Of a DNA stretch of 20,152 bases, positions 1,119 to 19,897 are shown piece by piece. Both the position numbers and the translations under genes were made by a program. A model generated the notes under the pieces. The model did not search any database, had not been told where the DNA came from, and saw only the letters and a program-made list of their open reading frames with translations. Each line of letters opens with the position of its first letter. Positions within the stretch are counted from its first letter, which is position 1. The stretch is taken from the IMG/VR virus record IMGVR_UViG_3300005513_000034, positions 1-20,152 of that record. One strand, 5' to 3'. This stretch comes from a virus.

Positions 1119-1124
1119 TAAATA
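1119..1124 (+). promoter_or_regulatory. TAAATA motif 1, putative late promoter core
   Basis: TAAATAG lies in the 69-nt gap between portal and scaffold genes, 50 nt upstream of the scaffold ATG. It is one of six copies in the window, all intergenic and on the coding strand. It matches the core of the T4-type late promoter. That it is a promoter is inference. Confidence 0.5.
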
Positions 1125-1126
1125 GA

Positions 1127-1150
1127 TTGCGCGGATTGCAAGCCGCACAA
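1127..1150 (+). other. Stem-loop in scaffold leader
   Basis: TTGCGCGG (1127-1134) pairs with CCGCACAA (1143-1150) with one C-A mismatch and an 8-nt loop. It begins three bases after TAAATA motif 1 and ends 24 nt before the scaffold start. It could be a 5' leader stabiliser or a processing site. There is no T run, so it is not a terminator. Confidence 0.4.
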
Positions 1151-1174
1151 ATTACAAGATGGTGGAGGCCATTA

Positions 1175-1768
1175 ATGACCGATAAGACTGATCCTATTCA
1201 GGACGACGTCGAAGCAACTGCCGGTGGAGACCAGCAAGAAGTTAGCGTTGAAGACCTGAAGTCCCGTATTGCATCCTTGGAGGCAGAAGCTGCCAAGAAC
1301 CGCAACCTCGCCAAGAAGGCGTTCGCTGAACGCGACGAAGCCAAGGCGAAGACAAAGACCGCTCAGGAAGAAGACTACAAGTCACTGTACGAGTCTGAAC
1401 AAGCAGAGAAGACGAAGTACCTGGCGCGCATCAAGAGTTCCGATGTCAAGAGTGCACTAGCGGCACAACTGGCAAAGAACGGGGTGCTTCCAGATGCTGT
1501 TGCCGCTGCTACTAAGCTCGTAGATCAAGAACTGATCGAGTGGGACTTGGAAAGCGGTGTTGACGGAACCAGCGTTACTGCTGCCGTTGCCAAGCTGAAG
1601 CGCGATCACGCCTTCATGTTTGAGCGCAAGGTAGCGGCAACTGACCCAAAGGCTCCGGCTGATGGCGCTGCACGCGACGCTAACGAAATGAAGCGCAGTG
1701 ATTTTGACAAGCTCGATGGCCTTGCTAAAGCAACAGCCGTCAAGAAGGGCATCAAGATCACAGACTGA
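1175..1768 (+). CDS. Head scaffolding protein
   Basis: This 197-residue, highly charged protein lies between portal and major capsid genes, the usual place of the scaffold that guides procapsid assembly and then leaves. Residues about 22-85 are Ala/Glu/Lys-rich and read as a long coiled coil (e.g. LKSRIASLEAEAAKNRNLAK). The N-terminus is acidic. The C-terminus is basic and helical (KKGIKITD), as expected for a capsid-binding segment in scaffolds. I chose ATG 1175 because a GGTGGAGG ribosome binding site sits at 1161-1168; the TTG at 1127 lies inside the leader hairpin and would add a Trp/Arg-rich tail. No separate prohead protease is visible, which fits a P22-like route in which scaffold is released intact. 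Confidence 0.8.
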   Translation: MTDKTDPIQDDVEATAGGDQQEVSVEDLKSRIASLEAEAAKNRNLAKKAFAERDEAKAKTKTAQEEDYKSLYESEQAEKTKYLARIKSSDVKSALAAQLAKNGVLPDAVAAATKLVDQELIEWDLESGVDGTSVTAAVAKLKRDHAFMFERKVAATDPKAPADGAARDANEMKRSDFDKLDGLAKATAVKKGIKITD

Positions 1769-1797
1769 TAGATCATTCAATAAGGAGAGCCATCTAA

Positions 1798-2697
1798 ATG
1801 GCCAATACACTTACCGGGCTGCTGCCCATCTTCTATGAAGCCCTCGACACCGTTGCTAACGAAAAGGTCGGCTTCCTCACTTCCGTCCAACAGGACGCCA
1901 ACGCAGACCAAGTCACACTGGGCCAGCCTATCCGCTCGTTCGTGACTCCTGCTGTCACGCCTACTGACATCGCTCCCGGTGTTACCGCCCCTAACACTGG
2001 CGGTCAGGCTCTGACATACGTTGACCTGCTGATCACAAAGTCCCAGGCAGTTCCTGTCCAGTGGACTGGTGAAGAACAGCTCAGCGTCAAGGCCCAGCTG
2101 GCAAACATCTTCCGCGATCAAGTTGCACAAGCCTTCCGTGGCCTGCGTAACGCGATGGAAGCTGACATCGCTGCTGCTGCTATCGCTGGCGCTGCTGCTA
2201 CGACTGGTACTGCTGGCACAACTCCTTTCGGCGTTGCTGGCGACCTGAGCGATGGCGCTGCCCTGCAGAAGCTGCTGGACGACGCTGGTGCTCCTGACAC
2301 TGACCGTCACCTGGTTGTTAACTCAGCCACGATGAAGAACTTCCGCGGCAAGCAATCCGTGCTGTTCAAGGTCAACGAAAGCGGTACTGCTGATCTGCTC
2401 CGCAAGGGCATCATCGGCGAACTGCAAGGCATGAACATCCACACGTCTTCTGCGCTGAACACTTCCGCTGACAACATCCTGTTCCACAAGAACGCGATCG
2501 TTCTGGCTACCCGTGTTCCAGCAATGCCAGCCGGTGGTGACGCTGCTACTGACGTGACCGAGATTCTCGATCCCGTTTCAGGCATCACATACCAGATCGC
2601 CATGTACAAGATGTACCGCCAGATCCACATCGAAATCGGTGCGGCATGGGGCGTGAAGGTCATCAAGTCTGCTTTCGTGGCAAACCTGCTGGGCTAA
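1798..2697 (+). CDS. Major capsid protein, P22 coat-like
   Basis: This 299-residue protein is the subunit of the icosahedral shell. Its N-terminal half resembles the P22 coat protein family (gene 5 type, HK97 fold). It starts MANTLTGLLPIFYEALDTV, then has NEKVGFLTSV, a valine/proline-rich strand region ending in PGVTAPNTGGQ, and 'ITKSQAVPVQWTGEEQ'. It is shorter than P22 gp5 (430 aa), so the P22 insertion domain is probably absent. There is no long N-terminal delta region, consistent with a separate scaffold upstream. The SD AAGGAG (1782-1787) is 10 nt from the ATG. The TAA stop lies in a small dyad and an intrinsic terminator follows, fitting a very highly expressed gene. Runs of GCT codons make an Ala-rich stretch near residues 121-142. 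Confidence 0.88.
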   Translation: MANTLTGLLPIFYEALDTVANEKVGFLTSVQQDANADQVTLGQPIRSFVTPAVTPTDIAPGVTAPNTGGQALTYVDLLITKSQAVPVQWTGEEQLSVKAQLANIFRDQVAQAFRGLRNAMEADIAAAAIAGAAATTGTAGTTPFGVAGDLSDGAALQKLLDDAGAPDTDRHLVVNSATMKNFRGKQSVLFKVNESGTADLLRKGIIGELQGMNIHTSSALNTSADNILFHKNAIVLATRVPAMPAGGDAATDVTEILDPVSGITYQIAMYKMYRQIHIEIGAAWGVKVIKSAFVANLLG

Positions 2698-2704
2698 GCC
2701 TTAG
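2694..2704 (+). repeat. CTAAG-C-CTTAG dyad over the capsid stop codon
   Basis: This perfect 5-bp inverted repeat has a 1-nt centre and contains the TAA stop (2695-2697) of the capsid gene. The same outer CTAAG/CTTAG arms enclose the tail tube stop codon at 5246-5264. It could be a protein-binding site or part of an RNA end structure. With a 1-nt centre it cannot form this exact RNA hairpin, although an overlapping AAGCC-TTAG-GGCTT hairpin (2696-2709) can form. Confidence 0.35.
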
Positions 2705-2717
2705 GGCTTCCCAAATG

Positions 2718-2743
2718 AAGGGCTCCCAACTGGGAGCCCTTTC
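2718..2743 (+). terminator. Rho-independent terminator after capsid gene
   Basis: GGGCTCCC (2720-2727) pairs perfectly with GGGAGCCC (2732-2739) around an AACT loop. The stem is extended by AA/TT, and TTTCT follows. It lies 21 nt past the capsid stop and upstream of TAAATA motif 2, so it should separate abundant capsid mRNA from the neck genes, with read-through or a new start supplying the rest. Confidence 0.85.
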
Positions 2744-2750
2744 TACGTCA

Positions 2751-2756
2751 TAAATA
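2751..2756 (+). promoter_or_regulatory. TAAATA motif 2, putative late promoter core
   Basis: TAAATAG lies just after the capsid terminator and 24 nt before the ATG of the next gene. This is where a new promoter would be needed. With T4 late spacing, transcription would start near 2762, leaving a short leader that still contains the GGAGG at 2770-2774. Confidence 0.55.
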
Positions 2757-2780
2757 GCCTGACACGCCTGGAGGCAACCC

Positions 2781-3314
2781 ATGACAACTATTGTCGTTGA
2801 GGACGGCTCGCAAGTACCGAACGCGAACAGCTATGTTTCGCTCGCTGACGCGATCACGTACCACACCAATAACGGAAACACCGATTTCACTGCCGCAGAT
2901 GAAGCAACGCAGACTGCCGCTTTGCTGCAAGCCTGCCAGTCAATGGAACTGCTGTACGGCCCCAACTACTTGGGCAACGTCAGCCCATTGAGTCCACAAG
3001 GTCTGCTGCATCCTCGCATGTACTACAAGACGAACACTGGTCGCCTGATCTTCCCATACATGATTGCGCCTAATGTCGTCCAAGCTCAACTTGAAATCGC
3101 GCTGATGCAGATTCAAGGCGTAGACATTTTCCCAATCCGCAGCACAACACAGAACGTCAAGAGCGAGACAACAAAGCTGGGTGAACTTTCAACCAGCACT
3201 GCCTACAGCCGTTCCAACGAAGGTGAACAGTTCCCAGGCTTCCGCAAGATCGACCTAATCCTCGCGCCTGTGATTCGCAACAACAAGACGCAAGGCGTGA
3301 GGATCGGCTTGTAA
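2781..3314 (+). CDS. DnaT-like head-tail adaptor protein
   Basis: This 177-residue protein is first of the neck module. The pattern 'VEDGSQVPNANSYVSLADA' at residues 5-23, a following helix with 'AALLQACQSMEL', and the 'PFPxxR' type C-terminal half (here HPRMYYKTNTG, PNVVQAQLEIAL) match the phage proteins annotated as DnaT-like ssDNA-binding. By position these are adaptor proteins that sit under the portal. The DnaT label is historical and I do not infer DNA replication activity. The SD GGAGG (2770-2774) is 6 nt from the ATG. The stop overlaps the next start (TAATG), so the four neck genes are translationally coupled. Confidence 0.8.
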   Translation: MTTIVVEDGSQVPNANSYVSLADAITYHTNNGNTDFTAADEATQTAALLQACQSMELLYGPNYLGNVSPLSPQGLLHPRMYYKTNTGRLIFPYMIAPNVVQAQLEIALMQIQGVDIFPIRSTTQNVKSETTKLGELSTSTAYSRSNEGEQFPGFRKIDLILAPVIRNNKTQGVRIGL

Positions 3315-3622
3315 TGGACTACGCCGCACTTCAAGCCAGTGCCCTATCGCTCTTGCAGCAGATGGGCACCAAAGTGTCTCTGACCAGCTACCAAACTGGT
3401 TCAAAGCTCAGTACTTACGGCGTCTTTGAGAAGATCAAACAAGACGATACGGGCGCAATGGCAACTGACGTTCGTACTGTGATTCTGCCCGGCAGCATCA
3501 AGACAGCCCCACAGATCGGCGACCACCTGACTATCAACAGTGTGAGCTACTACATCCAGGGCGTTGAGATTCAGAACCCAACTGGCAAGCCTCTGTACTA
3601 CCGCGTGAAGGTGATCGCATGA
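3314..3622 (+). CDS. Head closure / head-tail joining protein
   Basis: This 102-residue, beta-rich small protein lies between the adaptor and the gp10-like protein, the position of the head closure protein (stopper) that seals the portal after DNA packaging. It begins with a helix (DYAALQASALSLLQQMG). A compact beta domain follows, with the signature 'ILPGSIKTAPQIGDHLTI' and a closing strand 'YYRVKVIA', typical of gpFII/HK97 head-tail connector folds. Its start shares one base with the upstream stop, and its own stop overlaps the next ATG (ATGA). No independent SD is obvious, so expression probably depends on coupling. The function is inferred from position and fold pattern. Confidence 0.7.
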   Translation: MDYAALQASALSLLQQMGTKVSLTSYQTGSKLSTYGVFEKIKQDDTGAMATDVRTVILPGSIKTAPQIGDHLTINSVSYYIQGVEIQNPTGKPLYYRVKVIA

Positions 3623-3915
3623 GCACACAAGACGACATCGCTCGCTTGCAAGCGACTATGCAACGACTGCCTGGGGAGATTGCCAAAGAGTTCAAGGCGC
3701 GACTTGACATGCGTACTCCCGTGGATACGGGCGCACTGCGTAATGCCAACACAGTCGAGGTTGTGGACAACAGCATCGTGGTTAGTAATGCGATGCCCTA
3801 CTTTGACTATGTGGAAGACGGCACGCCAAAGATTCGCCCTGTGGGCATGCTAAAGACCACCGAGGCTGAACTGCCCGCAATCGTGCGTGTCGCACTACAG
3901 AGGGCCAGCAAGTGA
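3619..3915 (+). CDS. HK97 gp10-like tail completion protein
   Basis: This 98-residue protein shows the hallmark of the HK97 gp10 family: a charged N-terminal helix, then TPVDTGALRN at residues 33-42, then beta strands ending 'MPYFDYVEDGTPKIRP'. Family members join the finished tail to the head or complete the neck. It overlaps the preceding gene by ATGA and the next by GTGA. The length (98 aa) is slightly below many homologues but the core motif is intact. The family call is firm; the exact neck position is from known gene order (adaptor, closure, gp10, tail terminator). Confidence 0.85.
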   Translation: MSTQDDIARLQATMQRLPGEIAKEFKARLDMRTPVDTGALRNANTVEVVDNSIVVSNAMPYFDYVEDGTPKIRPVGMLKTTEAELPAIVRVALQRASK

Positions 3916-4307
3916 GCTATCTACCTATCCACCAAGCGCTTGATACGCAGTTCCTGACCGTTGATGGTCTGCCTGAGTTCTCAATCGAAGGCGGCCCCAA
4001 CAAACCCGGTGTCGCGTACTGCCGTGGCACTTTGCTGCCTGCACAGACCGATCTACCTACATTCGACGGCAAGTTGCAACGCCAGAACGGCAAGTATCAA
4101 GTGGATGTCTTCTTGAAGACAAGCACAGACTACTACGGAGCATACAGCCTCGTTGACTCAATCGTTGCTGCCTTCCCCCCGAGTTCAGACTTGGTTAAAG
4201 GCGCAACCACAGTTCGTGTATTGAACAGTTATCCCATCACTGTCCAGAACACGACACCCGGCTACTACCGGGTATCAGTAATCGTTGAATGGGAAAGCTG
4301 GATCTAA
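3912..4307 (+). CDS. Tail terminator protein (DUF4128-like)
   Basis: This 131-residue protein should form the ring that ends tail tube polymerisation and contacts the neck, as lambda gpU does. It has a short N-terminal helix and a substrate-like loop 'GLPEFSIEGGPNKPG'. Next come 'YCRGTLLPAQT' and 'NGKYQVDVFLKTSTDYYGAY', then a helix 'SLVDSIVAAFPPSSDL' and final strands 'YYRVSVIVEWESWI'. This matches the tail terminator/DUF4128 pattern, and the gene precedes the tail tube gene as expected. The start is GTG at 3912, overlapping the upstream stop as GTGA. A GAGGG-like purine run just upstream (3900-3904) may serve as a weak SD. Confidence 0.72.
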   Translation: MSYLPIHQALDTQFLTVDGLPEFSIEGGPNKPGVAYCRGTLLPAQTDLPTFDGKLQRQNGKYQVDVFLKTSTDYYGAYSLVDSIVAAFPPSSDLVKGATTVRVLNSYPITVQNTTPGYYRVSVIVEWESWI

Positions 4308-4346
4308 CCGGCCAGAAATTAACAACAAAAGCTCAAGGAGCAAGTT

Positions 4347-5249
4347 ATGACAATCGCACAACGTGGCTCGGCCTACTCAGCATTCATCGTTGAGACAACC
4401 CCCGGTACGACGCCAGCAACCCCCGTTTTCGCCTATCTGGGCACCACGGACAACACACTCACCTACGCGCAAGCAACGGCAGAAGACGACCGCGTACATG
4501 CGGACGGTCAGTCCCGCTACACGCTGTACATGAACCAGTCGCTGACCGGCGACCTGACCATGCCTATCGTGTGGACGCAGCCAGACCACTTCATCGAATC
4601 AGCTTTGCAAAGCTCATTCGCATCAAAGGTCTGCAAGGTCGGCACAACAGTCAAGACTATGACTGTTGAACGCGGCTACAACAGCATCAACCAGTTCCAC
4701 GTCTTTAAGGGCGTGCAAGTGGACAAGATGGAAGTGCAAGCCGGTATCACTGGCACGCCTACCATGAAGTTTAGTTGCGTGGCTCGTTCCTTCCTGCAAG
4801 GAACAGCAACGATCAGCACTTCTGCTGTGACTGACACGTCAACAACTAGCGCAATGAAGACCCAGGCGGGTTACTTCAAGATCGGTGGCGCAACCAATGC
4901 CTATGTTCAGTCTGTGACGCTGACAACTGATCGCGGTCTGGCCGCTCAGTATGGCTTCGGCTCTGCTGCACCTCTCGACTACGCATCAACGAACATCAAG
5001 GTCTCGGGTTCCGTGACTGTGCTGTTCACTGATGACAGCATGCTCCTGAAGTTCCGCAACGGCACAACTGACACGCTGGAATTCCAACTGACTGACGGCA
5101 CAAACACATACACGTTCCACCTCGGCAATGTGTATTACACGGCTGCTCCTACTTCACTTGGTACAAACGCAGCGATCCCCGTGACACTGAACTTCGTTGC
5201 TTCATACAGCTCCGCTGATGCGTCTGCACTGGTCGTGACAACGTCCTAA
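4347..5249 (+). CDS. Major tail tube protein
   Basis: This 300-residue protein should polymerise as hexameric rings to build the tail tube. It has the layout of the phage tail tube family seen in many siphoviruses: N-terminal 'GSAYSAFIVETTPGTTPATP', a long beta-rich body, a tube-type strand 'GVQVDKMEVQAGITGTPTMKF', and C-terminal 'NAAIPVTLNFVASYSS'. It lies between the tail terminator and the chaperone pair. An SD AAGGAG (4335-4340) is 6 nt from the ATG, the best-matched site in the neck/tail region, in keeping with high expression. The 39-nt gap upstream has no TAAATA, so it probably shares the neck transcript. The stop codon is inside an 8-bp perfect hairpin and a terminator follows. Confidence 0.85.
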   Translation: MTIAQRGSAYSAFIVETTPGTTPATPVFAYLGTTDNTLTYAQATAEDDRVHADGQSRYTLYMNQSLTGDLTMPIVWTQPDHFIESALQSSFASKVCKVGTTVKTMTVERGYNSINQFHVFKGVQVDKMEVQAGITGTPTMKFSCVARSFLQGTATISTSAVTDTSTTSAMKTQAGYFKIGGATNAYVQSVTLTTDRGLAAQYGFGSAAPLDYASTNIKVSGSVTVLFTDDSMLLKFRNGTTDTLEFQLTDGTNTYTFHLGNVYYTAAPTSLGTNAAIPVTLNFVASYSSADASALVVTTS

Positions 5250-5264
5250 GTGAATCTCACTTAG
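5246..5264 (+). repeat. Perfect hairpin over the tail tube stop codon
   Basis: CTAAGTGA (5246-5253) and TCACTTAG (5257-5264) are perfect reverse complements around ATC. The TAA stop (5247-5249) is in the left arm. It may protect the 3' end of the tube mRNA or bind a protein as DNA. TAAATA motif 3 begins on the next base. Confidence 0.55.
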
Positions 5265-5270
5265 TAAATA
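5265..5270 (+). promoter_or_regulatory. TAAATA motif 3, putative late promoter core
   Basis: The motif is squeezed between the stop-codon hairpin (ends 5264) and the terminator stem (starts 5272), 43 nt before the chaperone ATG. With T4 late geometry, transcription would start near 5276, inside the left terminator arm, so such transcripts could not form the terminator. Confidence 0.5.
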
Positions 5271-5271
5271 A

Positions 5272-5299
5272 GGGGCGGTCGAAAGTACCGCCCCTTTTT
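5272..5299 (+). terminator. Rho-independent terminator after tail tube gene
   Basis: GGGGCGGT (5272-5279) pairs with ACCGCCCC (5287-5294), followed directly by five T. The loop region CGAAAGT can close as a C-GAAA-G tetraloop with one bulged T, a very stable form. It lies 22 nt after the tail tube stop. It separates the abundant tube mRNA from the less needed chaperone and tape measure genes. Confidence 0.9.
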
Positions 5300-5313
5300 C
5301 ATAGGACGCATAC

Positions 5314-5688
5314 ATGAAGCTCGCAGACCTGCAACCCAAAGACTTTGAATACGAGATCGCCCACCCTGCCACGGGTGCGCCTCTTGGCGTCAAGATTCAA
5401 CTGACCGACCCCACTAGCCCCGTTGTTGTCGCAGCACAGCGCGACTTCCTGACTGCCCTGCGCGCAACCGCTAAGGCTGATCTGCCCGCTGAGGCCGAAT
5501 TGCTGGAACAAGCGTTGATCGTTCGCGCAAAAGCTGCTGTCGCGGGTTGGGAGTCCAAGTTCGATGAGTTCTTCGGTGGCCCATTCAGCAAGGAACTCGT
5601 GGACGCGATCTTTGCAGAGCCCAAGTTCCGTTGGCTGGTGGATCAACTGGCAGGCGCTGCTGCCGACCGCGGCAACTTTTTTCGCTGA
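5314..5688 (+). CDS. Tail assembly chaperone, short form (gpG-like)
   Basis: This 124-residue acidic protein follows the tail tube and precedes the tape measure, the fixed position of the lambda gpG-type chaperone that coats the tape measure during tail assembly. It has 'LADLQPKDFEYEIAHPATGAPLGVKIQLTDP' type beta start and then an Ala/Glu-rich helical part, typical of tail chaperones. It ends N-F-F-R-stop right after a T6 run at 5677-5682. A second open frame continues past this stop as the T-like extension. The start is ATG 5314 with a weak AGGA (5303-5306) 7 nt upstream. A weak SD fits the modest level needed for a chaperone. Confidence 0.78.
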   Translation: MKLADLQPKDFEYEIAHPATGAPLGVKIQLTDPTSPVVVAAQRDFLTALRATAKADLPAEAELLEQALIVRAKAAVAGWESKFDEFFGGPFSKELVDAIFAEPKFRWLVDQLAGAAADRGNFFR

Positions 5689-8510: not shown

Positions 8511-8534
8511 CTAGAGAACGGAGGCAACTATCGA

Positions 8535-10745: not shown

Positions 10746-10755
10746 AGGGGCCAAA

Positions 10756-10761
10756 TAAATA
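10756..10761 (+). promoter_or_regulatory. TAAATA motif 4, putative late promoter core
   Basis: AATAAATAC lies in the 52-nt gap between I and J, 36 nt before the J ATG and directly against the left arm of the J leader stem. With T4 late spacing, transcription would start near 10767, removing five GC-rich pairs of that stem. Confidence 0.5.
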
Positions 10762-10796
10762 CGGGCTACCGGAGTCACTTGGCTCCAAGGAGCCCG
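10762..10796 (+). promoter_or_regulatory. J leader stem-loop holding the Shine-Dalgarno
   Basis: CGGGCT (10762-10767) pairs with AGCCCG (10791-10796), CC (10769-10770) with GG (10789-10790), and GGAGTC (10771-10776) with GGCTCC (10781-10786, one T-G pair) around ACTT. That is 14 pairs with an A bulge and an AA bulge. The J SD AAGGAG (10787-10792) is partly in the right arm and partly in the bulge. On read-through mRNA the SD should be hidden. There is no T run and the ATG is 2 nt away, so it is not a terminator. Confidence 0.65.
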
Positions 10797-10797
10797 A

Positions 10798-13700
10798 ATG
10801 ACAACAACAGCCACCCTCCAAGACCTAGAGACAGCGCGGCTTATCCACGTAATCTCCGAGGGCGAATGCGAGGGCCTAGTTAACCCCACGAGTCCCGGCC
10901 AGTCCATCTTCTTTGATGGCACTGCGCTGACAAACGCCAGTGGTACGCAGAACTACGCCAACGTCACAGTCGTTCAGCGCACAGGCACGCAGGGTCAGGC
11001 GTACCTCCCCGGCTTTAACGCGGTAGAAAACGTCATCGCGGTTAACACCGAAGTTAAGTACGCGAGCCCAATCACACATACGACAACCGCAGCAAACATC
11101 GATGCTTGCGCGGTCACTGTCCAACTGCCAAACGGCTTGCAGAAGGTGGACGACAGCGGCAACTCAGTTGCCGAGGCCGTGTCCTTCAGCTTCTACACGA
11201 AGCTAACTTCGTCAGGCACCTGGGTTCTTGCACTGAGCGAGACCATCAACGGCGTAGCTGAGACGGGCTACGAAGCGCAATACCGCCTCACACGTCCAGC
11301 CGGTACAGGTACGTGGGACATCAAGATGACCCGCGACACGGTGGACACGACGACACCCAACACGGTCGCAGACAAGACTGTCTTTTACTCGATCAACGAG
11401 ATTCAGGAAGTCCAGCTTGGCTATGACAACTGCGCATTGGTCGCATTGACCTACGACGCGAAGACAGCAGGCAATGTCAACGCTACGACGTTCGACTTCA
11501 AGGGCATCAAGGTTGCGGTGCCCAGCAACTACAACCCAACGACCCGCGTTTACTCGGGCATCTGGGACGGCACGCTGTCAGCGACCAAAACATGGACGTT
11601 CGACAAGACGAACAACATGTGGAACGAGTCCAAGACAGGCACGACCTATTGGACTGACAACCCCGTTTGGTGTCTCTATGACCTGCTGACGAATCACCGC
11701 TACGGCCTGGGTGAGTTCGTGGGCAACTACGAGATTGACCTGCCCTCGTTCTACAACGCCAGTGTCTGGTGCGACACGTTGGTGGACGACGGAACGGGCA
11801 GCGGCACGACAGAGCCCCGCTTCCGTTTCAACGCACAGATTACGACAGCCGAAGACTCTTGGAAGCTGCTTCAGAACTTCGCAGGCACGTTCAACGGCGC
11901 GCTGTTGGTCGCAAACGGCTACATCACGTTGATCGTGGACATGCCGACGACAGCCAGTGCATTGGTGTCACGCGCAACCATGAGCAGCGATGGCCCCACC
12001 TACACGGACACAGCGGCCAGCACTCGCAAGTCCGTCGCTCGCGTCTCTTGGAACAACCCAGACAACGCATTCCAGCAGGAACAGGCGGTCTACACCGAAG
12101 CCGACCCAGCGAACAACATCCCATGGATTGTTGACGACGCCACGGCTTGGGGTTGCACGTCACACGGTCAAGCGTTGCGCGTTGCACGTTGGTACGTGGA
12201 CACGCAGCTTCGCAACGTCCGCATGATCACCTACAAGGCACCGCTCAGCGCAATCAATGTGCTGCCCGGCGCGGTCATCAAGGTCGCCGATAGCCGCTTC
12301 GCTTCCACACAGATGGAGGCCATGGTCACTGCGGTAACTGGCACTACCGTCGTGCTTGATCGCCCTGTCACGGTACAGAGCGGCACTTGCACGATTGACG
12401 TGCTGTTGGCTGACGGCAGCACCATTGAGCAGCGCGTCATCACGACAGCGCCTGGTTCAACAAGCACGCTGACTATCGCATCTGCATTCTCTCAAGGCGT
12501 CATCACTGGCCCGGGTTCAACCGCGATCATCAGCGGCAACATTTCGGCTCAGTACTTCCGTGTCACCGACGTAGCGGAAGACACGGACGGCTGGTTCAGC
12601 ATCTCAGCAGTCCAGTACGACAGCACCAAATACAGCCGCGTCGAAACAGGCATCAGCGTTCCCGCCCCTGTGTTCAGCGACATCACGGGCAATCAGACCG
12701 TGCCTGATCTGCCTACTGGCCTCGCAACTGCGATCACGACCAGCACGGACACAGACGGCAAGGTCACGCGCAACATTCAAGTCACATGGAACAAGCCAGA
12801 CACGGCTTCAACTTCCTTGCTGTCTTGGCGTCACGCAGGCCAGGAGTGGAATTCATTCACGAACCTGGATGCGGCACGATTCACGATCAAGAACGTCACA
12901 CCTGATTCCTACGAGATTCAGGTCGCAAGTGTCAGCCAGTACGGCGTGCAAAGCGCAGCCGTATTCACGACTGCAACGGTCAGCCTATCAGGTGCGTCAG
13001 GCACGTCAGCACTTGCACCTGTCACCAACTTGCAAGTAGTGGGTGGCGGCGCATCGTTCAACGCGCCAGACCTGAACATCCAGTGGACGAATCCCACGAG
13101 CAATGCGGGCATGACTCCCGCGCTCAAGGACTTCGTTGTCAACGTCTCGACAACTGGCGGCACTCTGCTTCGCAGCGAAGTGGTTGCAGCGGTCAGCGCA
13201 GGTGCAAATGCCACCTACACGTACAGCTACCAGAAGAATCAAGTTGACAGCGGGTACAGCCCGAACCGCAGCGTCGTTATCAGCGTTGCTGCGCGTGATG
13301 GCCTGAACAACACCACGACGACCACAAGCCGCACGTTCTCGAATGCTGCTCCGGCACTTCCCACTAACGTAGTCGTTAGCAGCGGCGTCGGCACTGTGTT
13401 CGTGAAGTGGGACAAGCCCACTGATGCTGACTATGCGGGCACGAACGTCTGGCTGTACACGACAAGCGGCGCAACGCTTGCGACTTCTAACCTCGCAGCG
13501 CACACGACCGACACGCTGGTGTCTTTGAACCAGGTCTCAGCCGGTGTCGTGCACTACGTGAAGGTTGCGCACTACGACACGTTCGGCAATAGCGACACGG
13601 GCTCAGGCTTGAACATCAGCGCGGAATACAGCGCGACACCAAGCGGCACGGGCATTCCAGGCGTCTCTACCCTGCCCGGCACAAGCTCTGAAGGCACGAT

Positions 13701-15534
13701 CGTTTACGACACAACGGACGGCCAACTGTACGTATGGCACTCAGGTGCATGGTCTACGGTCGTTACCAAGGTTCCCGCATCGGGATTGGTCGGCACCATT
13801 AACAGCGGACAGATTGCTAGCGTTGCCGCATCTGCCATCACGGGTTCGATTGCAGACACGCAGCTTGCCGCGATCAGCGCATCGAAGGTAACGGGCACGC
13901 TCGTTGACTCGCAGATCGCCGCACTGTCGATGTCAAAGCTGACGGGCACGATCACAACAACGCAGATCGGCACGAACACCATTCAGACTGGCAACATCGC
14001 AGCGAACGCGATCACATCGGCTGTCATTGCTGCGAACACGATCCTCGGTTCAAACATCGCAGCAGGCACGATCAGCACAGGCAACCTTGCTGCGTCTAGC
14101 GTCACGACTTCGATTCTTGCAGCGAATGCAGTCACGGCACTGAACCTCGCAGCAGGTGCGGTCACGACCGGCAAGCTGGTTGTCAGCAGCACGCCATCAG
14201 TCAGTGTTTGGTCAGATGCGAACTTCCAAGACACCAGCGCTTGGACGCTCTGCAACTGGGGTGTCTTCCCAACACAAGGCACTGTCACAGACGGTGCATC
14301 GGGCGGCACAACGCTTCGCAGTCCAACGGGTGGCGCAGCGAGTGCATACGGCACGGTCAAGGTTCCTGTTGTCGTCGGCAACACCTATCGCCTGTCCTGC
14401 CGTGCACGTTCCGTTGGTTCAAACGGCACCATGTATCTGCGCTGGAACACAGGCACTGCGGCCACAGGCGCATACAACCAGGTCACGGGCAGCGTTGAAG
14501 GTGTGACCCCTGGCAGTAGCTGGACACGCTACACGACCGATTGGGTTGCCACGACGCCCTATGCATCGCCGATGGTTCTCGTGAACTACACCGGTACTGC
14601 GGGCTACATGGAAGCGCAGGACATCCGCATCGAAGAGCTGATGCCCGGCAACTTGATTGTCAGCGGCACTATCACGGGCTCCCAGGTCGCAGCGAACACG
14701 ATCACAGGCGGCAACATCGCGGCCAACACGATCACCGCTTCCAACATCGCTGCAAGCACGATCACAACGAACGAGATTGCGGCCAACACGATCACAGGCG
14801 GTGACATTGCGGCCAGCACGATCACGGGTTCCAACATCGCAGCGAACACCATTGCTGCGAACAACTTGGTTGCGAACACGATCACTGCTGGTCAGATTGC
14901 AACCGGCACGATCACCAGCACGCAGATTGCAGGCTCGACCATCACAGGCGGCAACATTGCGGGTTCAACGATCACAGGCGGCAACATTGCCGCTAGCACG
15001 ATCACAGCCGGCAACATCGCAGCAGGCACTATCACAGCCACGCAGTTGACGACCAGCAGCGCGGTCATCACGACCAGTGCGCAGATTGCCAACCTGACAG
15101 TGCAGACGCTGAACATCGGCAACAACGCAGTCACGGTTCCCGCTTCTGCATTCTCGTCCGGCTCGATCACCGTATCCAGCTCCATCGATGCACAGACCGT
15201 CACGCTGACCACAAGCGGCGCAACTGTGCAGATCTTCGGCGGCGCAAGCGTGTCAGTGGGCTTCGGCAGCTATTTGGTATCGGGCGCAGGCCCGTACTAC
15301 GACGACTGCACGTGGTCGGCCTCCATCTATCGCGATGGCTCGCTGCTCTACACAGTCGGCGGCCTGCTTTGCACAGCCCCATACAACAGCGGCGCGATTC
15401 TCACGTTGCCTCCGCTGTTCGACACGCCTCCTGCTGGCGGTCATACATACACGATGCGCATTGCCGGTTCAGGCAGTCACAACACGTTCTCGGCTTCCAA
15501 CCGCGGCTTGTCTGTGATGGAGGTTAAGAAATGA
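10798..15534 (+). CDS. Central tail fibre / host specificity protein, lambda gpJ-like
   Basis: At 1578 residues this is the largest gene here; it forms the trimeric tail tip hub and fibre that contacts the receptor. Residues 1-620 are the J hub, from 'ARLIHVISEGECEGLVN' through 'TDNPVWCLYDLLTNHRYGLG' to 'YFRVTDVAEDTDGWFSISAV'. Three fibronectin III-like domains follow at about 635-735, 740-850 and 852-948. Then come 10-residue repeats (1052-1131), a jelly-roll domain resembling CBM 4/9 (about 1132-1281, 'GNTYRLSCRARSVGSNGTMY'), a second repeat block (1292-1421) and a terminal beta-rich head (about 1422-1578) that is the best receptor-binding candidate. Lambda gpJ is 1132 aa; the repeats and CBM-like domain explain much of the excess. 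The SD AAGGAG is 5 nt from the ATG but lies within a stem. Confidence 0.93.
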   Translation: MTTTATLQDLETARLIHVISEGECEGLVNPTSPGQSIFFDGTALTNASGTQNYANVTVVQRTGTQGQAYLPGFNAVENVIAVNTEVKYASPITHTTTAANIDACAVTVQLPNGLQKVDDSGNSVAEAVSFSFYTKLTSSGTWVLALSETINGVAETGYEAQYRLTRPAGTGTWDIKMTRDTVDTTTPNTVADKTVFYSINEIQEVQLGYDNCALVALTYDAKTAGNVNATTFDFKGIKVAVPSNYNPTTRVYSGIWDGTLSATKTWTFDKTNNMWNESKTGTTYWTDNPVWCLYDLLTNHRYGLGEFVGNYEIDLPSFYNASVWCDTLVDDGTGSGTTEPRFRFNAQITTAEDSWKLLQNFAGTFNGALLVANGYITLIVDMPTTASALVSRATMSSDGPTYTDTAASTRKSVARVSWNNPDNAFQQEQAVYTEADPANNIPWIVDDATAWGCTSHGQALRVARWYVDTQLRNVRMITYKAPLSAINVLPGAVIKVADSRFASTQMEAMVTAVTGTTVVLDRPVTVQSGTCTIDVLLADGSTIEQRVITTAPGSTSTLTIASAFSQGVITGPGSTAIISGNISAQYFRVTDVAEDTDGWFSISAVQYDSTKYSRVETGISVPAPVFSDITGNQTVPDLPTGLATAITTSTDTDGKVTRNIQVTWNKPDTASTSLLSWRHAGQEWNSFTNLDAARFTIKNVTPDSYEIQVASVSQYGVQSAAVFTTATVSLSGASGTSALAPVTNLQVVGGGASFNAPDLNIQWTNPTSNAGMTPALKDFVVNVSTTGGTLLRSEVVAAVSAGANATYTYSYQKNQVDSGYSPNRSVVISVAARDGLNNTTTTTSRTFSNAAPALPTNVVVSSGVGTVFVKWDKPTDADYAGTNVWLYTTSGATLATSNLAAHTTDTLVSLNQVSAGVVHYVKVAHYDTFGNSDTGSGLNISAEYSATPSGTGIPGVSTLPGTSSEGTIVYDTTDGQLYVWHSGAWSTVVTKVPASGLVGTINSGQIASVAASAITGSIADTQLAAISASKVTGTLVDSQIAALSMSKLTGTITTTQIGTNTIQTGNIAANAITSAVIAANTILGSNIAAGTISTGNLAASSVTTSILAANAVTALNLAAGAVTTGKLVVSSTPSVSVWSDANFQDTSAWTLCNWGVFPTQGTVTDGASGGTTLRSPTGGAASAYGTVKVPVVVGNTYRLSCRARSVGSNGTMYLRWNTGTAATGAYNQVTGSVEGVTPGSSWTRYTTDWVATTPYASPMVLVNYTGTAGYMEAQDIRIEELMPGNLIVSGTITGSQVAANTITGGNIAANTITASNIAASTITTNEIAANTITGGDIAASTITGSNIAANTIAANNLVANTITAGQIATGTITSTQIAGSTITGGNIAGSTITGGNIAASTITAGNIAAGTITATQLTTSSAVITTSAQIANLTVQTLNIGNNAVTVPASAFSSGSITVSSSIDAQTVTLTTSGATVQIFGGASVSVGFGSYLVSGAGPYYDDCTWSASIYRDGSLLYTVGGLLCTAPYNSGAILTLPPLFDTPPAGGHTYTMRIAGSGSHNTFSASNRGLSVMEVKK
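13951..14190 (+). repeat. 30-bp tandem repeat block 1 in J (8 units)
   Basis: There are eight in-phase 10-residue units with pattern I/V-T-x-x-x-I/L-A-A-x-T/S, starting ITTTQIGTNT and ending VTTGKLVVSS. Looser related units precede it from about 13799. A hydrophobic residue every five positions suggests a stacked beta shaft. DNA identity between units is moderate. Confidence 0.85.
14671..15060 (+). repeat. 30-bp tandem repeat block 2 in J (13 units)
   Basis: There are twelve clear units and one degenerate 10-residue unit, exactly 30 bp each, consensus ITGGNIAANT. Some units are nearly identical in DNA (those starting at 14701, 14941 and 14971 share ATCACAGGCGGCAACAT), which marks recent duplication or ongoing recombination. 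The block follows the CBM-like domain. Confidence 0.92.
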
Positions 15535-16139
15535 AGAACTACGTCGTATTCGATCCTGCGTCGGGAGAAATCCTACGCAGCGGTCATTGCCAGGACTCAG
15601 ACCTGGAACTGCAAGACCCAACGGGCAACGTGATCGAGGCCGAGGGTCGCGACAGCAGCCACTACGTGCAGGACGGCCAGCTTGTGGCCTACACGGACGA
15701 ACAAGCTGCCGCAAAGGCCAATCGTCCCAGCTATCCATGCGAGTGGTCGAACACCAGTTGCACATGGGCGGACTTGCGTGACCTTGATCGCATCAAGCTC
15801 GATCAGTGGGCACTCATTAAGGCCGCTCGTGAAGATGCGCTGAAAGCGGGCTTCACCTGGAACGGAATGAAGTTCCAGAGCGACCCAACATCGCAGCAAC
15901 AGATTCAAGGCGCTGTAGCGGGCGCGCAGCTCGCAGCCACAGCAGGTGCGCCCGTTTCTATCACATGGACGCTCGCGGACAACACAACAACGGTCTTGAG
16001 TGCGCAAGACATGGCCGGCGTGGGACTGGCACTGCTGGCATTCGTGCAATCGCAGTTTGATCGAGGCGTGGAGCTACGCAAGCAGATCGAAGCTGCCTTG
16101 GATGCCGCCTCAGTCCAGGCAATCACCTGGGCTTCTTAA
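15531..16139 (+). CDS. DUF4376 protein, tail fibre assembly-like
   Basis: This 202-residue protein overlaps the J stop (ATGA). The C-terminal part (about 91-202) matches DUF4376, with 'DQWALIKAAREDALKAGFTW', then 'FQSDPTSQQQIQGAV', 'ITWTLADNTTTVLSAQDM' and a closing amphipathic helix. These domains are common at the end of tail fibre operons and are linked to fibre assembly chaperones or fibre tip components. The N-terminal 80 residues are a small beta domain (YVVFDPASGEILRSGHC), perhaps a virion-binding part. The tight coupling to J suggests it acts with J. The exact role is unknown. Its TAA stop is the first three bases of TAAATA motif 5. Confidence 0.75.
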   Translation: MKNYVVFDPASGEILRSGHCQDSDLELQDPTGNVIEAEGRDSSHYVQDGQLVAYTDEQAAAKANRPSYPCEWSNTSCTWADLRDLDRIKLDQWALIKAAREDALKAGFTWNGMKFQSDPTSQQQIQGAVAGAQLAATAGAPVSITWTLADNTTTVLSAQDMAGVGLALLAFVQSQFDRGVELRKQIEAALDAASVQAITWAS

Positions 16140-16142
16140 ATA
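16137..16142 (+). promoter_or_regulatory. TAAATA motif 5, putative late promoter core
   Basis: TAAATAG overlaps the TAA stop of the DUF4376 gene and lies 19 nt before the next ATG. A start near 16148 would leave a 14-nt leader that still holds the GGAGG at 16152-16156. Because TAA is a stop here, part of the match is forced by coding. Confidence 0.45.
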
Positions 16143-16161
16143 GAACAACACGGAGGCACGT

Positions 16162-16524
16162 ATGGCCGCAACTCTAAACATTTCAGTCGATCAGGGATCG
16201 AACCTCACGGTGAACTTTCCGCTTACCAATGCGGACGGTTCCACGTTCGATTTGACCGGCTACAGCGCTCGCGCGCAAGTGCGCCAGACGTTCGGCGCAT
16301 CAACGGCATTGGTCGATGCTTCAACGACCAACGCGAAGCTATCGATTGCGAGCGGCACGGTCACATGGCAGCTCGTTCCTGCTGACACAGCCAACGAGCA
16401 CTTCCCTGCTGCCGACGACGCCAGTATCGATCTGGTCTATGACCTCAAGGTCACATCACCTGGTGGTCAGGTCTACACCGCTGCAAGCGGCACATTTTCA
16501 GTAAACCGCGCAGTTACGCGCTAA
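16162..16524 (+). CDS. BppU N-terminal-like small virion protein
   Basis: This 120-residue protein has a beta-sandwich pattern: 'NISVDQGSNLTVNFPLTNADGSTFDLTGYSARAQVRQ', then 'GTVTWQLVPADT' and 'YDLKVTSPGGQVYTAASGTFSV'. The order 'tolerates input, D-L-T-G-Y/C, x-A-Q-V/I-R' is typical of small phage proteins related to the N-terminal domain of baseplate upper protein BppU, which anchors receptor-binding proteins. The gene starting at 19937 is a diverged relative in the same window. The SD GGAGG (16152-16156) is 5 nt from the ATG. By context it is probably an adaptor for an accessory fibre; that is inference. Confidence 0.6.
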   Translation: MAATLNISVDQGSNLTVNFPLTNADGSTFDLTGYSARAQVRQTFGASTALVDASTTNAKLSIASGTVTWQLVPADTANEHFPAADDASIDLVYDLKVTSPGGQVYTAASGTFSVNRAVTR

Positions 16525-16541
16525 TAACAAGAGGCATCTAA

Positions 16542-16934
16542 ATGTCCAACACGACTTTCACAGATAACGCGCTTCTGAACGCGATGCACGGCAAGGCGAC
16601 ATACACCGCGCCTACCAACCTTTACGTGGGCCTCAGCACCACGACACCAACCGCAGCAGGAACGAACGTCACGGAACCAACGGGCAACGCATACGCACGT
16701 GTCACGGTGCCCGCTACTAGCTTCGGTTCCGCTTCTGCTGGTTCAATCACTAACACAGCAACCGTGACCTTCCCTACGCCAACAGGTACAGGCTGGGGCT
16801 CAATCACCTACGCGCTGGTCTACGACGCGGCAACTGGCGGCAACCTGCTCTGGTATGCACCATACAACCAGTCAGTCCCCGCAGGCGTAACAGTCAGCTT
16901 CGCCGCTGGCACGATGACCTCTACTCTCAGCTAA
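16542..16934 (+). CDS. Gp80-like phage structural protein
   Basis: This 130-residue protein has a pattern seen in Gp80-type phage proteins: an N-terminal 'ALLNAMHGKATYTAPTNLYVGLSTTTPT', then 'TEPTGNAYARVTVPATSF', then 'TFPTPTGTGWGSITYALVYDAATGGNLLWYAP', ending with 'VSFAAGTMTSTL'. It is all-beta and probably a virion or fibre component with unknown partner. A purine run AAGAGG (16529-16534) is 7 nt from the ATG. Its start context CATCTAAATG is shared with the capsid gene. The next gene starts within its stop (TAATG), so the two are coupled. Confidence 0.65.
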   Translation: MSNTTFTDNALLNAMHGKATYTAPTNLYVGLSTTTPTAAGTNVTEPTGNAYARVTVPATSFGSASAGSITNTATVTFPTPTGTGWGSITYALVYDAATGGNLLWYAPYNQSVPAGVTVSFAAGTMTSTLS

Positions 16935-17119
16935 TGAGCGCGATCCTCGACCAGTTCGAGGCTTGTATCGCCTCGAACACTGCGCTGCCAGTTCTGAACA
17001 GCACACAGTGGGCACAGCTTCAAGTTGATGCCCAGGCACTCGATGCCTTTACACAAGATGAACTTCTGACCTTCTGCCGATACAAGGGCCGTGGCTTCGG
17101 AGTTGATCTCAGCTCCTGA
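16934..17119 (+). CDS. Small protein of unknown function (61 aa)
   Basis: I do not recognise this 61-residue protein. It is mostly helical in appearance (ILDQFEACIASNTALPVLN, TQWAQLQVDAQALDAFTQ), with no signal peptide or membrane segment, two cysteines (residues 10 and 48) and a polar C-terminus. I count it as real because its ATG overlaps the upstream stop (TAATG) and the downstream gene starts 8 nt after its own stop. The region also fits between two coding regions without conflict. It could be a small chaperone or linker for the adjacent fibre-like proteins, but nothing in the sequence proves this. Confidence 0.6.
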   Translation: MSAILDQFEACIASNTALPVLNSTQWAQLQVDAQALDAFTQDELLTFCRYKGRGFGVDLSS

Positions 17120-17127
17120 GGTGAGCG

Positions 17128-18114
17128 ATGTCTAACAACACAACACTTAACTCGATGTCTGGTGGCGATGTCATCCAGACAATCGACAACACTGCTGGCG
17201 CTGCTGCTGCCAAGACGCCTGTTACCGCAGTAGCGGATTCCACGGGTGTGAACTTCATGGCCGTCGAAAGCGACGGCTCGATCGATGTAAACATCATCAG
17301 CAACTCGGCAATCCCTTTGGGATCCATGAGCGGCACCAACGGCGCAGCGAATGCATCGGTTGTTCTGTCGAATGGCGGAATCAGCCTCAGCACCGTTGCG
17401 TTCGTGCTGACTGGCACATGGGCAGGCACGCAGGTCTTTGAAGCGTCGGCAGACGGAACAAACTACGTGAGTATTCAATGCGCGGTTCCAAACACTGGTG
17501 CGTTGGTAACTTCAACTACCGCAAACGGCACATGGGTGGCCGACGTTGCGGCCTTCATGTACTTCCGAGTTCGATGCTCGGTCTACACGAGTGGCACTGC
17601 CAGCGTGAACGGCGTTGCGACTGGTGCCACTGGCCTAGTGGGTCTGGATCAGCCACTTCCCGCTGGCTCGAACACCATTGGTATCGTCAAGGCTGCTGGC
17701 CTTGGCTATACGGCCAACCCTTCTGCCGTCGGTAACGGCGCGCAGCAGAACGTGATGCTTGACAAGGTAGGCCGTGTGGTGACTATCGCGGGCCATGTTC
17801 GCGACATGGTGGGCACGCAGTCAACGACGATCACCAGTTCAACCACAACAACCACAGTCGTCACAGCTCCAGGCGCATCCGTGTACGCAGACTTGACTCA
17901 CCTTACGATCACGAATGGCAGTGGCACGGCCACGACTGTGACTCTCAGCGACGGCACGGTCAGCTATTGGTACAACATTCCTGCTGGTGGTGGTCTGACT
18001 ACAAACTTCAATCCACCCAAGAAGGCCACGACAGCCAATGCGGCATGGACGTTGACGTGCGGTACTTCCGTCGCTTCGATCTACTGCAACATCGTCTACG
18101 TCAAGAACCTGTAA
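17128..18114 (+). CDS. Putative virion surface protein (328 aa)
   Basis: This 328-residue, Thr/Ser/Ala/Gly-rich, beta-type protein has two parts. About 80-170 looks like a binding or decoration domain ('FVLTGTWAGTQVFEASADGTNYVSIQ', 'FMYFRVRCSVYTSG'). About 225-328 has 'TTVVTAPGASVYADLTHLTITNGSGT' and ends 'IYCNIVYVKNL', a pattern I know from unnamed phage structural proteins in tail fibre regions. There is no signal peptide or membrane segment. The SD GAGGTGA (17118-17124) is close to the ATG. It is likely an accessory adhesin or decoration protein. The family name is not certain. Confidence 0.6.
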   Translation: MSNNTTLNSMSGGDVIQTIDNTAGAAAAKTPVTAVADSTGVNFMAVESDGSIDVNIISNSAIPLGSMSGTNGAANASVVLSNGGISLSTVAFVLTGTWAGTQVFEASADGTNYVSIQCAVPNTGALVTSTTANGTWVADVAAFMYFRVRCSVYTSGTASVNGVATGATGLVGLDQPLPAGSNTIGIVKAAGLGYTANPSAVGNGAQQNVMLDKVGRVVTIAGHVRDMVGTQSTTITSSTTTTTVVTAPGASVYADLTHLTITNGSGTATTVTLSDGTVSYWYNIPAGGGLTTNFNPPKKATTANAAWTLTCGTSVASIYCNIVYVKNL

Positions 18115-18123
18115 GAGGCTGGC

Positions 18124-18828
18124 ATGGCGATCAGCATTACGGTCAACACCAGCGCATCAGCCTATGGTGTCTACACCACTGGTTCCACTGGTATTTGGGG
18201 GAACTCAGCCGGTGTGTTCAACACCAACCCAGGCAAGTATTACCTGATCAGCTTCATTGCCGACGCTGGTTCCAACATTACACCGAACAGCTTCGCTAAC
18301 ACGCTGGGGCTCGTGAACATCACACTCCTGACATCGAACACTTTGGGCACTGTCAAGCTGTGGATCTACGGTGCGTGGGGAACCAACGTCAATACAACTG
18401 GCGCGTTCTATTGGAGCGTTGCGGCGGCTGCCGGTACACAAGACATTGCATTCACGATTGACGAAGTAACGGGCGCGGCGTTGAAGCCCAACCCGCTTGT
18501 TCAAGCTGTGACAGGAACATCAGGTTCACTGCCCTTTGCGGCATGCGGCACGAACAATCTCGTTATGGCTTGGCAGTTCAACAACGCAGCGACATCAAGT
18601 GGCGTCGGCACTGCGCCAGCGAACTCAACGGTTCTTACGGGTAGACCCGCCGGTGCAGCATCTACGTTCATTCGTTACCACTTCACTACTAACCCCACGG
18701 GAGCAACAGCGTTCGGCACCACCGCGTGGTCAACCATCGGCGTAGAAATCGAAGCTTTTGCGGGTGGGGCTGCGTTCGGCACAGCACCAGCAGTCAGTAG
18801 CGCGTCCATGATGGGCATGGGAGTCTGA
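18124..18828 (+). CDS. Unrecognised beta-rich protein, probable virion component (234 aa)
   Basis: I do not recognise this 234-residue protein. It is beta-rich with alternating hydrophobic residues ('YYLISFIADAGSNITPNSF', 'LVNITLLTSNTLGTVKLWIYGAWG', 'TSTFIRYHF'-like strands) and a jelly-roll look. The C-terminus is Met/Gly-rich (SMMGMGV). The AAGAGG SD (18113-18118) overlaps the upstream stop and is 5 nt from the ATG. The gene is closely packed with its neighbours, so it probably belongs to the same virion surface set. A carbohydrate-binding role is possible but unsupported by any motif I can name. Confidence 0.55.
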   Translation: MAISITVNTSASAYGVYTTGSTGIWGNSAGVFNTNPGKYYLISFIADAGSNITPNSFANTLGLVNITLLTSNTLGTVKLWIYGAWGTNVNTTGAFYWSVAAAAGTQDIAFTIDEVTGAALKPNPLVQAVTGTSGSLPFAACGTNNLVMAWQFNNAATSSGVGTAPANSTVLTGRPAGAASTFIRYHFTTNPTGATAFGTTAWSTIGVEIEAFAGGAAFGTAPAVSSASMMGMGV

Positions 18829-18829
18829 C

Positions 18830-19894
18830 ATGTCGCTTCTGCTGCTCTTTCAAGCTACTTCAACGAGTAGTAGTGTCGCTGCCACATACACAAGCACTGC
18901 AACGGCAGGCCAGACCTACACGGGCACGGCTGCGGCAAGTGCCAGCCTGAGCAACGACGGAACGGGCTCGGCCACCTACACAGGTAGCGCGTCGATCCAG
19001 GCTAGTTTCACCAGCTCCGCGACCAGCTCACAGATCTACGTGGGCACAGCAAGTGCGGCGGCAACGAGCAGCAACTTGGGTACGGCAGCACAGGTCTACA
19101 CGTTGGCAGGAACTGCTACAGGCCAATACAGCAGCGCGGGAACATCCAGCCAGGTCTACACGCTCACGGGCAAGGCAAGCGGCACATACAACGCGGCTGG
19201 CCTTGGCACAGCCACCTACACAGGCACGGCTGTCGCCGGCGGATCGATCACCAACAGCGCAACAGCCAGTCAGGCCTACAGCTTCACAGTGACAGGCGGG
19301 GGTGCCTCGTACACGAACGCTGCCACGGCCAGCCAGGTCTACGTGGGAACAGCCCAAGCAAGCGCTGCAATCACGAGTTCGGGCACAGGTACTACCGCGT
19401 ACACCGCGTCTGCCAAAGCCTCTGCCAGCGCGTCCCAGAGCGCTTCCTGCGCGCAGTCCTATGCGCCCCAGGCGATCGCACAAGCGGTCACGGCAAATAC
19501 GGGCTCGAGTTCAGCAACCTACATGGGCAATGCGACCGCCTGGGCGTCAGTCGTCCAAAGCATCGCGTCCAGCCAGCAGTACAGCGGCAAAGCAGATGCA
19601 GCGGGCCAGTTCGAGAACGACGTACTGGCGAACCAGCTCTACACCCCGGTTGCAGTCGGTGCGATTGCGGACACGCTGGTCGTTGGACTGAACTACCTCG
19701 ATTGGAAGCTGCAACCAGACGGCAGCATCGCGCAAACCCAAGTAGTCCAGACGGGTCAACTGACGATCCACGAGACTTTGGCCGCAAAGATCACCACGTC
19801 TGCAACGCTTGCTGCCAAGGTAACGACTGCACTGTCCCTGCCTTGCAGTGTCACCACATACTTGACACTGCCTGCTATTCATCTGACTGTCTAA
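18830..19894 (+). CDS. Repeat protein with twelve 20-residue units (354 aa)
   Basis: This 354-residue protein is very rich in Ser, Thr, Ala and Gly. After a short hydrophobic start (MSLLLLFQAT) and a partial unit, residues 28-268 are twelve units of 20 residues (one has 21). Their consensus is Q-x-Y-T-G-T-A-x-A-x-x-x-x-x-x-x-x-T-x-S, with Tyr fixed at position 3. Residues 269-315 are non-repetitive (LNYLDWKLQPDGSIAQTQVV). Residues 316-354 are three and a half 10-residue units (TLAAKITTSA type). I know no named family. The regular period suggests a fibrous or solenoid beta shaft, perhaps a side fibre or tail decoration. The MSLLLLF start is too short to be a convincing signal peptide. The ATG is 1 nt after the upstream stop; SD is weak (GGGAG at 18818-18822). 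Confidence 0.65.
   Translation: MSLLLLFQATSTSSSVAATYTSTATAGQTYTGTAAASASLSNDGTGSATYTGSASIQASFTSSATSSQIYVGTASAAATSSNLGTAAQVYTLAGTATGQYSSAGTSSQVYTLTGKASGTYNAAGLGTATYTGTAVAGGSITNSATASQAYSFTVTGGGASYTNAATASQVYVGTAQASAAITSSGTGTTAYTASAKASASASQSASCAQSYAPQAIAQAVTANTGSSSATYMGNATAWASVVQSIASSQQYSGKADAAGQFENDVLANQLYTPVAVGAIADTLVVGLNYLDWKLQPDGSIAQTQVVQTGQLTIHETLAAKITTSATLAAKVTTALSLPCSVTTYLTLPAIHLTV
18911..19633 (+). repeat. 60-bp periodic repeat array in the 354-aa protein gene
   Basis: There are twelve units, each 60 bp (one 63 bp), marked by a CAGGTCTACAC or GCCACCTACAC-like start. The most similar unit starts are near 19091, 19151 and 19334. Identity in the rest of the unit is low except for the Ser/Ala/Thr bias, so the array is old compared with J block 2. 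Confidence 0.8.
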
Positions 19895-19897
19895 ATA
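19892..19897 (+). promoter_or_regulatory. TAAATA motif 6, putative late promoter core
   Basis: TAAATAG overlaps the TAA stop of the 354-aa repeat protein and lies 39 nt before the next ATG. A GGGG-TATAGG-CCCC hairpin (19904-19917) follows, near the expected start site. Part of the match is fixed by the stop codon. Confidence 0.45.

Follow-up and report, generated by a model that had tools for sequence, protein, structure and literature searches.

The DNA analysed here, a stretch of 20,152 nucleotides from an uncultured virus (hereafter the window), carries a run of structural genes in which a short element, TAAATA, recurs in the non-coding gaps. Two IMG/VR contigs from the same sample share overlaps of 9,161 and 11,041 bases (100% identical) with the window; joined to it, they give a sequence that runs from -11495 to 35332 in window coordinates.

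An integrated prophage of about 40.6 kb

The left end of the extended sequence is bacterial, with about 67% GC, and holds gyrA (84% to a Burkholderiales genome) and pheA; an apparent match of this end to a phage topoisomerase was rejected, as it is the host gyrA. At the right end host DNA appears again: positions 33915-34047 match the host proxy and represent the displaced 3' end of pheA. The phage is therefore integrated and temperate, a fact not evident from the window alone. The prophage, of about 40.6 kb, occupies the 3' end of pheA in a Burkholderiales host, with its ends at about -6720 and about 33914. Its gene content comprises an integrase (-6329 to -5352), terminase, portal, capsid, tail and tail-fibre genes, followed by mostly unknown small genes.

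The small open reading frames on the right-hand side mostly have no match in Pfam or PHROGs. A search for close relatives, covering 401 genomes from the family to which the host proxy belongs, brought up distant matches at best. Outside the structural genes, the matches between the prophage and its relatives are limited to an endonuclease-like gene (33391-33840) and to 28477-28731, which weakly matches a 63-residue protein of contig G802 (27%, E=2e-4). The latter lies in a run of short overlapping genes beyond the window (26761-28731), apparently repeated versions of one small family (MNTTIED..., MNKAPTIS...). Also beyond the window, the right part of the prophage carries cargo at 29977-31805, a glycosyltransferase-like gene and a twitch-domain radical SAM gene (NF033640). 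The C-terminal part of a 205-residue protein (32240-32857) resembles the H-NS DNA-binding domain by eye; a sequence search of solved structures gave no confirmation.

A strand-specific hexamer in the non-coding gaps

The window contains six copies of TAAATA (Table 1), all on the + strand, and none of TATTTA. Every window gap longer than 40 nt has a copy, as has the 22-nt gap before the gene at 16162, with gaps and gene starts taken from a home-made gene caller. Four of the six copies read TAAATAG, and two overlap TAA stop codons. All of this had been described in a sequence-only reading of the window, and a recount confirmed the copies, their coordinates and strand, the absent complement and the distances to the next ATG.

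Table 1. TAAATA copies and neighbouring features in the window
Feature	Position	Strand	Remark
TAAATA before scaffold-like gene 1175-1768	1119..1124	+	50 nt to ATG; two distant relatives likewise have CTAAATAG ahead of the scaffold gene
Terminator-like hairpin GGGCTCCCAACTGGGAGCCC + TTTC, after capsid gene, just before the 2751 element	2720..2743	+	direct reading; z -5.3 for 38 nt upstream
TAAATA before head-tail adaptor gene 2781-3314	2751..2756	+	24 nt to ATG; CATAAATA at the matching syntenic place in L009
Perfect inverted repeat CTAAGTGA-ATC-TCACTTAG, abutting the 5265 element	5246..5264	.	lost in L012 although TAAATA is kept
TAAATA before tail assembly chaperone gene 5314-5688	5265..5270	+	43 nt to ATG; conserved in L012, L009, L132
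Terminator-like hairpin GGGGCGGT...ACCGCCCC + TTTTT, beginning 1 nt past the 5265 element	5272..5299	+	hairpin analysis
TAAATA before tail tip gene J 10798-15534	10756..10761	+	36 nt to ATG; identical in L012, L013
Conserved hairpin between element and J start, Shine-Dalgarno between two stems	10762..10796	+	z -4.6
TAAATA over stop codon of 15531-16139, before gene 16162-16524 (phrog_1084)	16137..16142	+	19 nt to ATG
TAAATA over stop codon of 18830-19894, before gene 19937 onward (phrog_1084)	19892..19897	+	39 nt to ATG

These counts are far above expectation. Dinucleotide shuffles of the window (n=100) gave a mean of 1.04 TAAATA and a maximum of 4, with 0 of 100 reaching six, and the composition of the gaps on both strands predicts 0.49 copies in the window where 6 are observed (P=1.3e-5). 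The part of the prophage outside the window, an unseen test set, holds 11 further copies (9 forward and 2 reverse), all in gaps, against 0.78 expected (P=7.9e-10). In a blind ranking of all gap hexamers of the prophage against gap dinucleotides, TAAATA comes first with P=6e-19 and the runner-up reaches 3e-5. Fourteen other hexamers are made of four A and two T, and only ATAAAT is present in more than two copies (6, the number that follows from the six TAAATA with an A in front). Taken over the 40.6-kb prophage, all 17 copies lie in gaps and none in genes, and five of them overlap TAA stop codons. The sequence-only reading had seen no copy inside genes, and this is true for the window as well as for the whole prophage; the weight placed on it has to be reduced, since codon-shuffled genes yield just 0.84 copies in the window genes and 2.4 in the prophage genes, so that the absence alone is weak and non-significant evidence.

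The orientation of the copies is equally telling. Sixteen of the 17 face a gene on the same strand; the exception, at 22328, lies in a convergent gap without a gene to serve. Each of the two divergent gaps has a reverse copy (-2272 and 23563) directed at the leftward gene and a forward copy directed at the rightward one. This agreement of strands, together with the pairs in divergent gaps, argues for an element acting at 5' ends and against a 3'-end or terminator element. Copies that speak against a restriction to late genes are found at -2272 (reverse), 23563 (reverse), 23628, 24473, 25917 and 26738, and all but the first of these precede non-structural genes. Those at 24473 and 25917 are weaker cases with ambiguous gene starts, and at 26738 the Shine-Dalgarno begins 2 nt past the element, so that little room is left for a start site.

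Little besides the hexamer itself appears to be fixed. Of 17 prophage copies, 16 have A, C or G as the preceding base and none has TA before the core, the 10 nt that follow are GC-rich (39% AT), and no other position is clearly conserved, nor is there a conserved -35 or activator site upstream. Matches resembling TTGACA at spacings of 15-19 do not exceed the chance level, either in the prophage or at 25 sites of two relatives, which bears out the earlier remark that no -35 element is apparent.

These properties bear on whether a host sigma factor, sigma70 or another, reads TAAATA as a -10 element without any phage factor. The lysogen already contains the host holoenzyme, and the spread of copies over structural and non-structural regions would fit an element that needs no phage protein. 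Nevertheless, TAAATA makes a poor -10 for sigma70: it ends in A, in the place of the most conserved T that sigma70 requires. Neither a TATAAT-like -10 nor a TTGACA -35 at 15-19 nt accompanies the copies: the prophage gaps contain no TATAAT at all, and one-mismatch versions of TAAATA are rare there, so a spread of -10 variants is missing too. The host proxy genome has 0 TAAATA in 400 kb, a weak test in a genome of about 70% GC. On balance, recognition by a host sigma factor alone is considered unlikely.

An alternative is that the element acts in RNA, as a UAAAUA leader bound by a regulator or nuclease and affecting translation. A precedent is offered by the Start Associated Sequences (SAS) in the non-structural half of cluster K mycobacteriophages, which are 13 bp long, have a Shine-Dalgarno-like part and lie near the start (PMC3203893). 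The two resemble each other as short asymmetric gap repeats found just before genes and co-oriented with them in siphophages, and the strand specificity, the proximity to starts and the hairpins that follow several copies would suit an RNA element. However, TAAATA stands farther from the start and mostly before structural genes, and it has neither the Shine-Dalgarno content nor the fixed small start distance of SAS: the distance varies from 17 to 70 nt to the start codon (more before some capsid genes) and from 2 to 40 nt to the Shine-Dalgarno. A hairpin after every copy was considered and rejected, the mean z being about -1 and carried by two strong sites. Action in RNA thus seems improbable.

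A third possibility, that TAAATA is a phage repressor operator comparable to dispersed stoperators, is still more remote, and we give it very little credence. A separate palindrome, CTAAGTGA-N3-TCACTTAG, does abut the 5265 element, with half-sites in the vicinity of -2272 and 23563/23628. On the other hand, the hexamer is asymmetric, lacks conserved flanks and points at genes, and the relative L012 loses the palindrome and keeps TAAATA. The half-sites, of the form TCACTTRG, stand beside TAAATA copies at -2263, 23555 and 23620, in addition to the inverted repeat at 5246; this repeat (5246-5264) and the half-sites are possible repressor operators in their own right. A dispersed palindrome is also known from another phage contig, IMG/VR 3300035491_000179 (79.6 kb; loci L040 and L115-L118), where many gap copies of CCTGTAAATACAGG or close versions of it occur in either orientation and look like a dispersed operator system.

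Conservation in relatives and specificity among other phages

The prophage has two nearer relatives, L012 (80% DNA identity) and L013 (73%), and three distant ones that came from capsid- and portal-based searches: L009 (39% portal identity, 39% GC), L132 (40%, 36% GC) and L133 (43%, 38% GC). In the nearer relatives TAAATA is kept before J (both) and before the chaperone gene (L012) with changes in the bases just upstream. Enrichment extends to two of the distant ones. TAAATA leads the gap hexamers of L009, with 9 copies against 2.4 expected. L132, which was fetched once the hypothesis was fixed, has 16 gap copies where 3.9 are expected (P=4e-6); in its gaps 16 copies are sense and 2 antisense, in its genes 11 and 11. 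Over the whole G802 contig, on which L132 lies, the hexamer ranks 8 among gap hexamers (P=7e-6). L133 taken alone is not significant (3 against 1.5 expected). The sequence-only reading had named a lack of enrichment in relatives as a possible refutation, and L009 and L132 both display the enrichment; neither did the hexamer prove equally frequent in genes and gaps across the full prophage (0 and 17 copies).

The positions are conserved as well as the numbers. Among comparable orthologous gaps, 20 of 22 contain TAAATA. In the genomes that have the gap, this applies to portal (3/3), scaffold (4/4), adaptor (3/3) and chaperone (3/3), and to both terminase small subunit gaps with room for it; the two misses are the prophage gaps before capsid (29 nt) and tail tube (39 nt). 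The scaffold gap has CTAAATAG in three of four genomes, and the adaptor gap has TCATAAATA in two. At 23 of 25 sites in the relatives an A stands directly before the core, so that NATAAATA is the fuller form there, a constraint that the prophage does not share. In L132, a small hairpin such as GTAGCA...TGCTAC is located a few nucleotides after several copies (for example 3158, 4906 and 5311), at what would be the extreme 5' end of the predicted transcripts.

Outside this group the signal is scarce. The identical blind script ranks TAAATA first in the T4 late region (17 against 3.75 expected, P=5e-7) and 30th in lambda; no enrichment is seen in HK639, Caulobacter DMCA, Salicola CGphi29 or phiPSA1. 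Of 53 loci examined, only T4 and L009 have TAAATA as the top gap hexamer, and in loci picked by about 30% identity of the tail tip protein J (L019-L070) the gap enrichment is not convincing. A literature search for TAAATA together with late promoter found no paper in the collection searched.

A candidate minimal promoter and the factor that would read it

The observed element, which is strand-specific, restricted to gaps, conserved at orthologous gaps and devoid of a -35, is best explained as the core of a minimal, -10-only promoter in a siphophage lineage, read by RNA polymerase with a specificity factor. We assign this reading a probability of roughly 0.77. T4 late promoters have the sequence TATAAATA and are recognized by gp55 together with gp33 and the gp45 clamp, and temperate siphophages are taught to be lambda-like, with one late promoter and antitermination. 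In T4, gp55 reads positions -13 to -6 without a -35 (PMC2988020), and CTAAATA in Aeh1 is an example of variation in the bases that precede the core (PMC1524935). With T4 as precedent, it is likely that transcription starts at TAAATA, and the start would be positioned about 6 nt downstream.

In this promoter model, the polymerase and its specificity factor would recognize the hexamer directly, and leaders of about 13-45 nt would carry the Shine-Dalgarno. Many short transcription units would then lie between the structural operons, as opposed to the single long antiterminated late transcript of lambda. At 5265 two kinds of RNA would differ: a transcript reading through from upstream would form the terminator hairpin, while one begun at the element would lack most of the 5' arm, because the hairpin begins 1 nt past the element. 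The conserved hairpin at 10756, with its Shine-Dalgarno between the stems, may occupy an analogous position relative to the start.

The likeness to T4 late promoters is functional and is not a family membership. Common to both are the TAAATA core, the absence of a -35 and many copies before structural genes. L009 and L132 use NATAAATA, while the full octamer TATAAATA is not encountered in the prophage, whose copies lack TA before the core and an AT-rich stretch after it, and also precede non-structural genes. Moreover, the host of these elements is a temperate siphophage without detectable gp55, T4 a lytic myovirus. Of the resemblance to T4 proposed earlier, the core hexamer thus stands, as the blind script on T4 late DNA returns it too, and the leading TA of TATAAATA falls away. 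With lambda and HK639 the prophage shares a similar late gene order, a P22-coat-family capsid and lambda-like tail proteins; in contrast to these phages, where the hexamer is not distinctive, it has its own element in nearly every late gap.

The designation as a candidate late promoter likewise needs amending. A promoter-like, strand-specific element without a -35, conserved at structural-gene gaps, is upheld; its exclusive assignment to late genes is not. "Late promoter" is probably too narrow for the prophage, because copies at 23563 (reverse), 23628, 24473, 25917 and 26738 precede non-structural genes; copies thus stand before the non-structural rightward genes of 23.6-26.7 kb and before two leftward units.

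As to the factor, a phage-encoded one among the unknown proteins of the prophage is favoured, because the hexamer is unchanged between phages of 36% and 57% GC. A gp55-type factor, which the sequence-only reading had considered, was not detected: a profile of 8 gp55 proteins gave no homologue among the prophage open reading frames (best E 4.3, against 7e-83 for the T4 control) and none on the full contigs of the relatives (T4 record 3e-81), the search being complete for the prophage only, because the relatives' contigs are fragments. Since the prophage is essentially complete, a missing contig is no explanation for the missing factor. Pfam Sigma70_r2 found nothing on the prophage contigs, a sigma region-2 homologue is not detectable in the prophage or on the relatives' contigs, and general PHROGs scans of most prophage open reading frames returned no gp33 or gp45 sliding-clamp family among the matches; highly diverged factors could evade such profile searches. 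AlphaFold models (single sequence) of the proteins encoded on either side of the divergent gap at 23.5-23.7 kb had pLDDT values of 46 and 42 and were unusable.

It can be proposed, tentatively and at somewhat less than even odds, that a factor unrelated to gp55 in sequence reads TAAATA without a -35 in this temperate, uncultured siphophage lineage, and that T4-like late transcription either evolved twice or relies here on a factor that diverged past recognition. If the promoter reading is true, a lysogenic phage would be run, in contrast to the textbook scheme, by a six-base, -10-only promoter with the T4 core in nearly every late gap. This raises the question of which of the approximately 25 unknown proteins in a 40-kb prophage reads TAAATA. 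Furthermore, the hexamer may provide a simple handle for promoter annotation in a phage group whose portal protein is without match (two were searched, neither with a match among 50,697 phage records).
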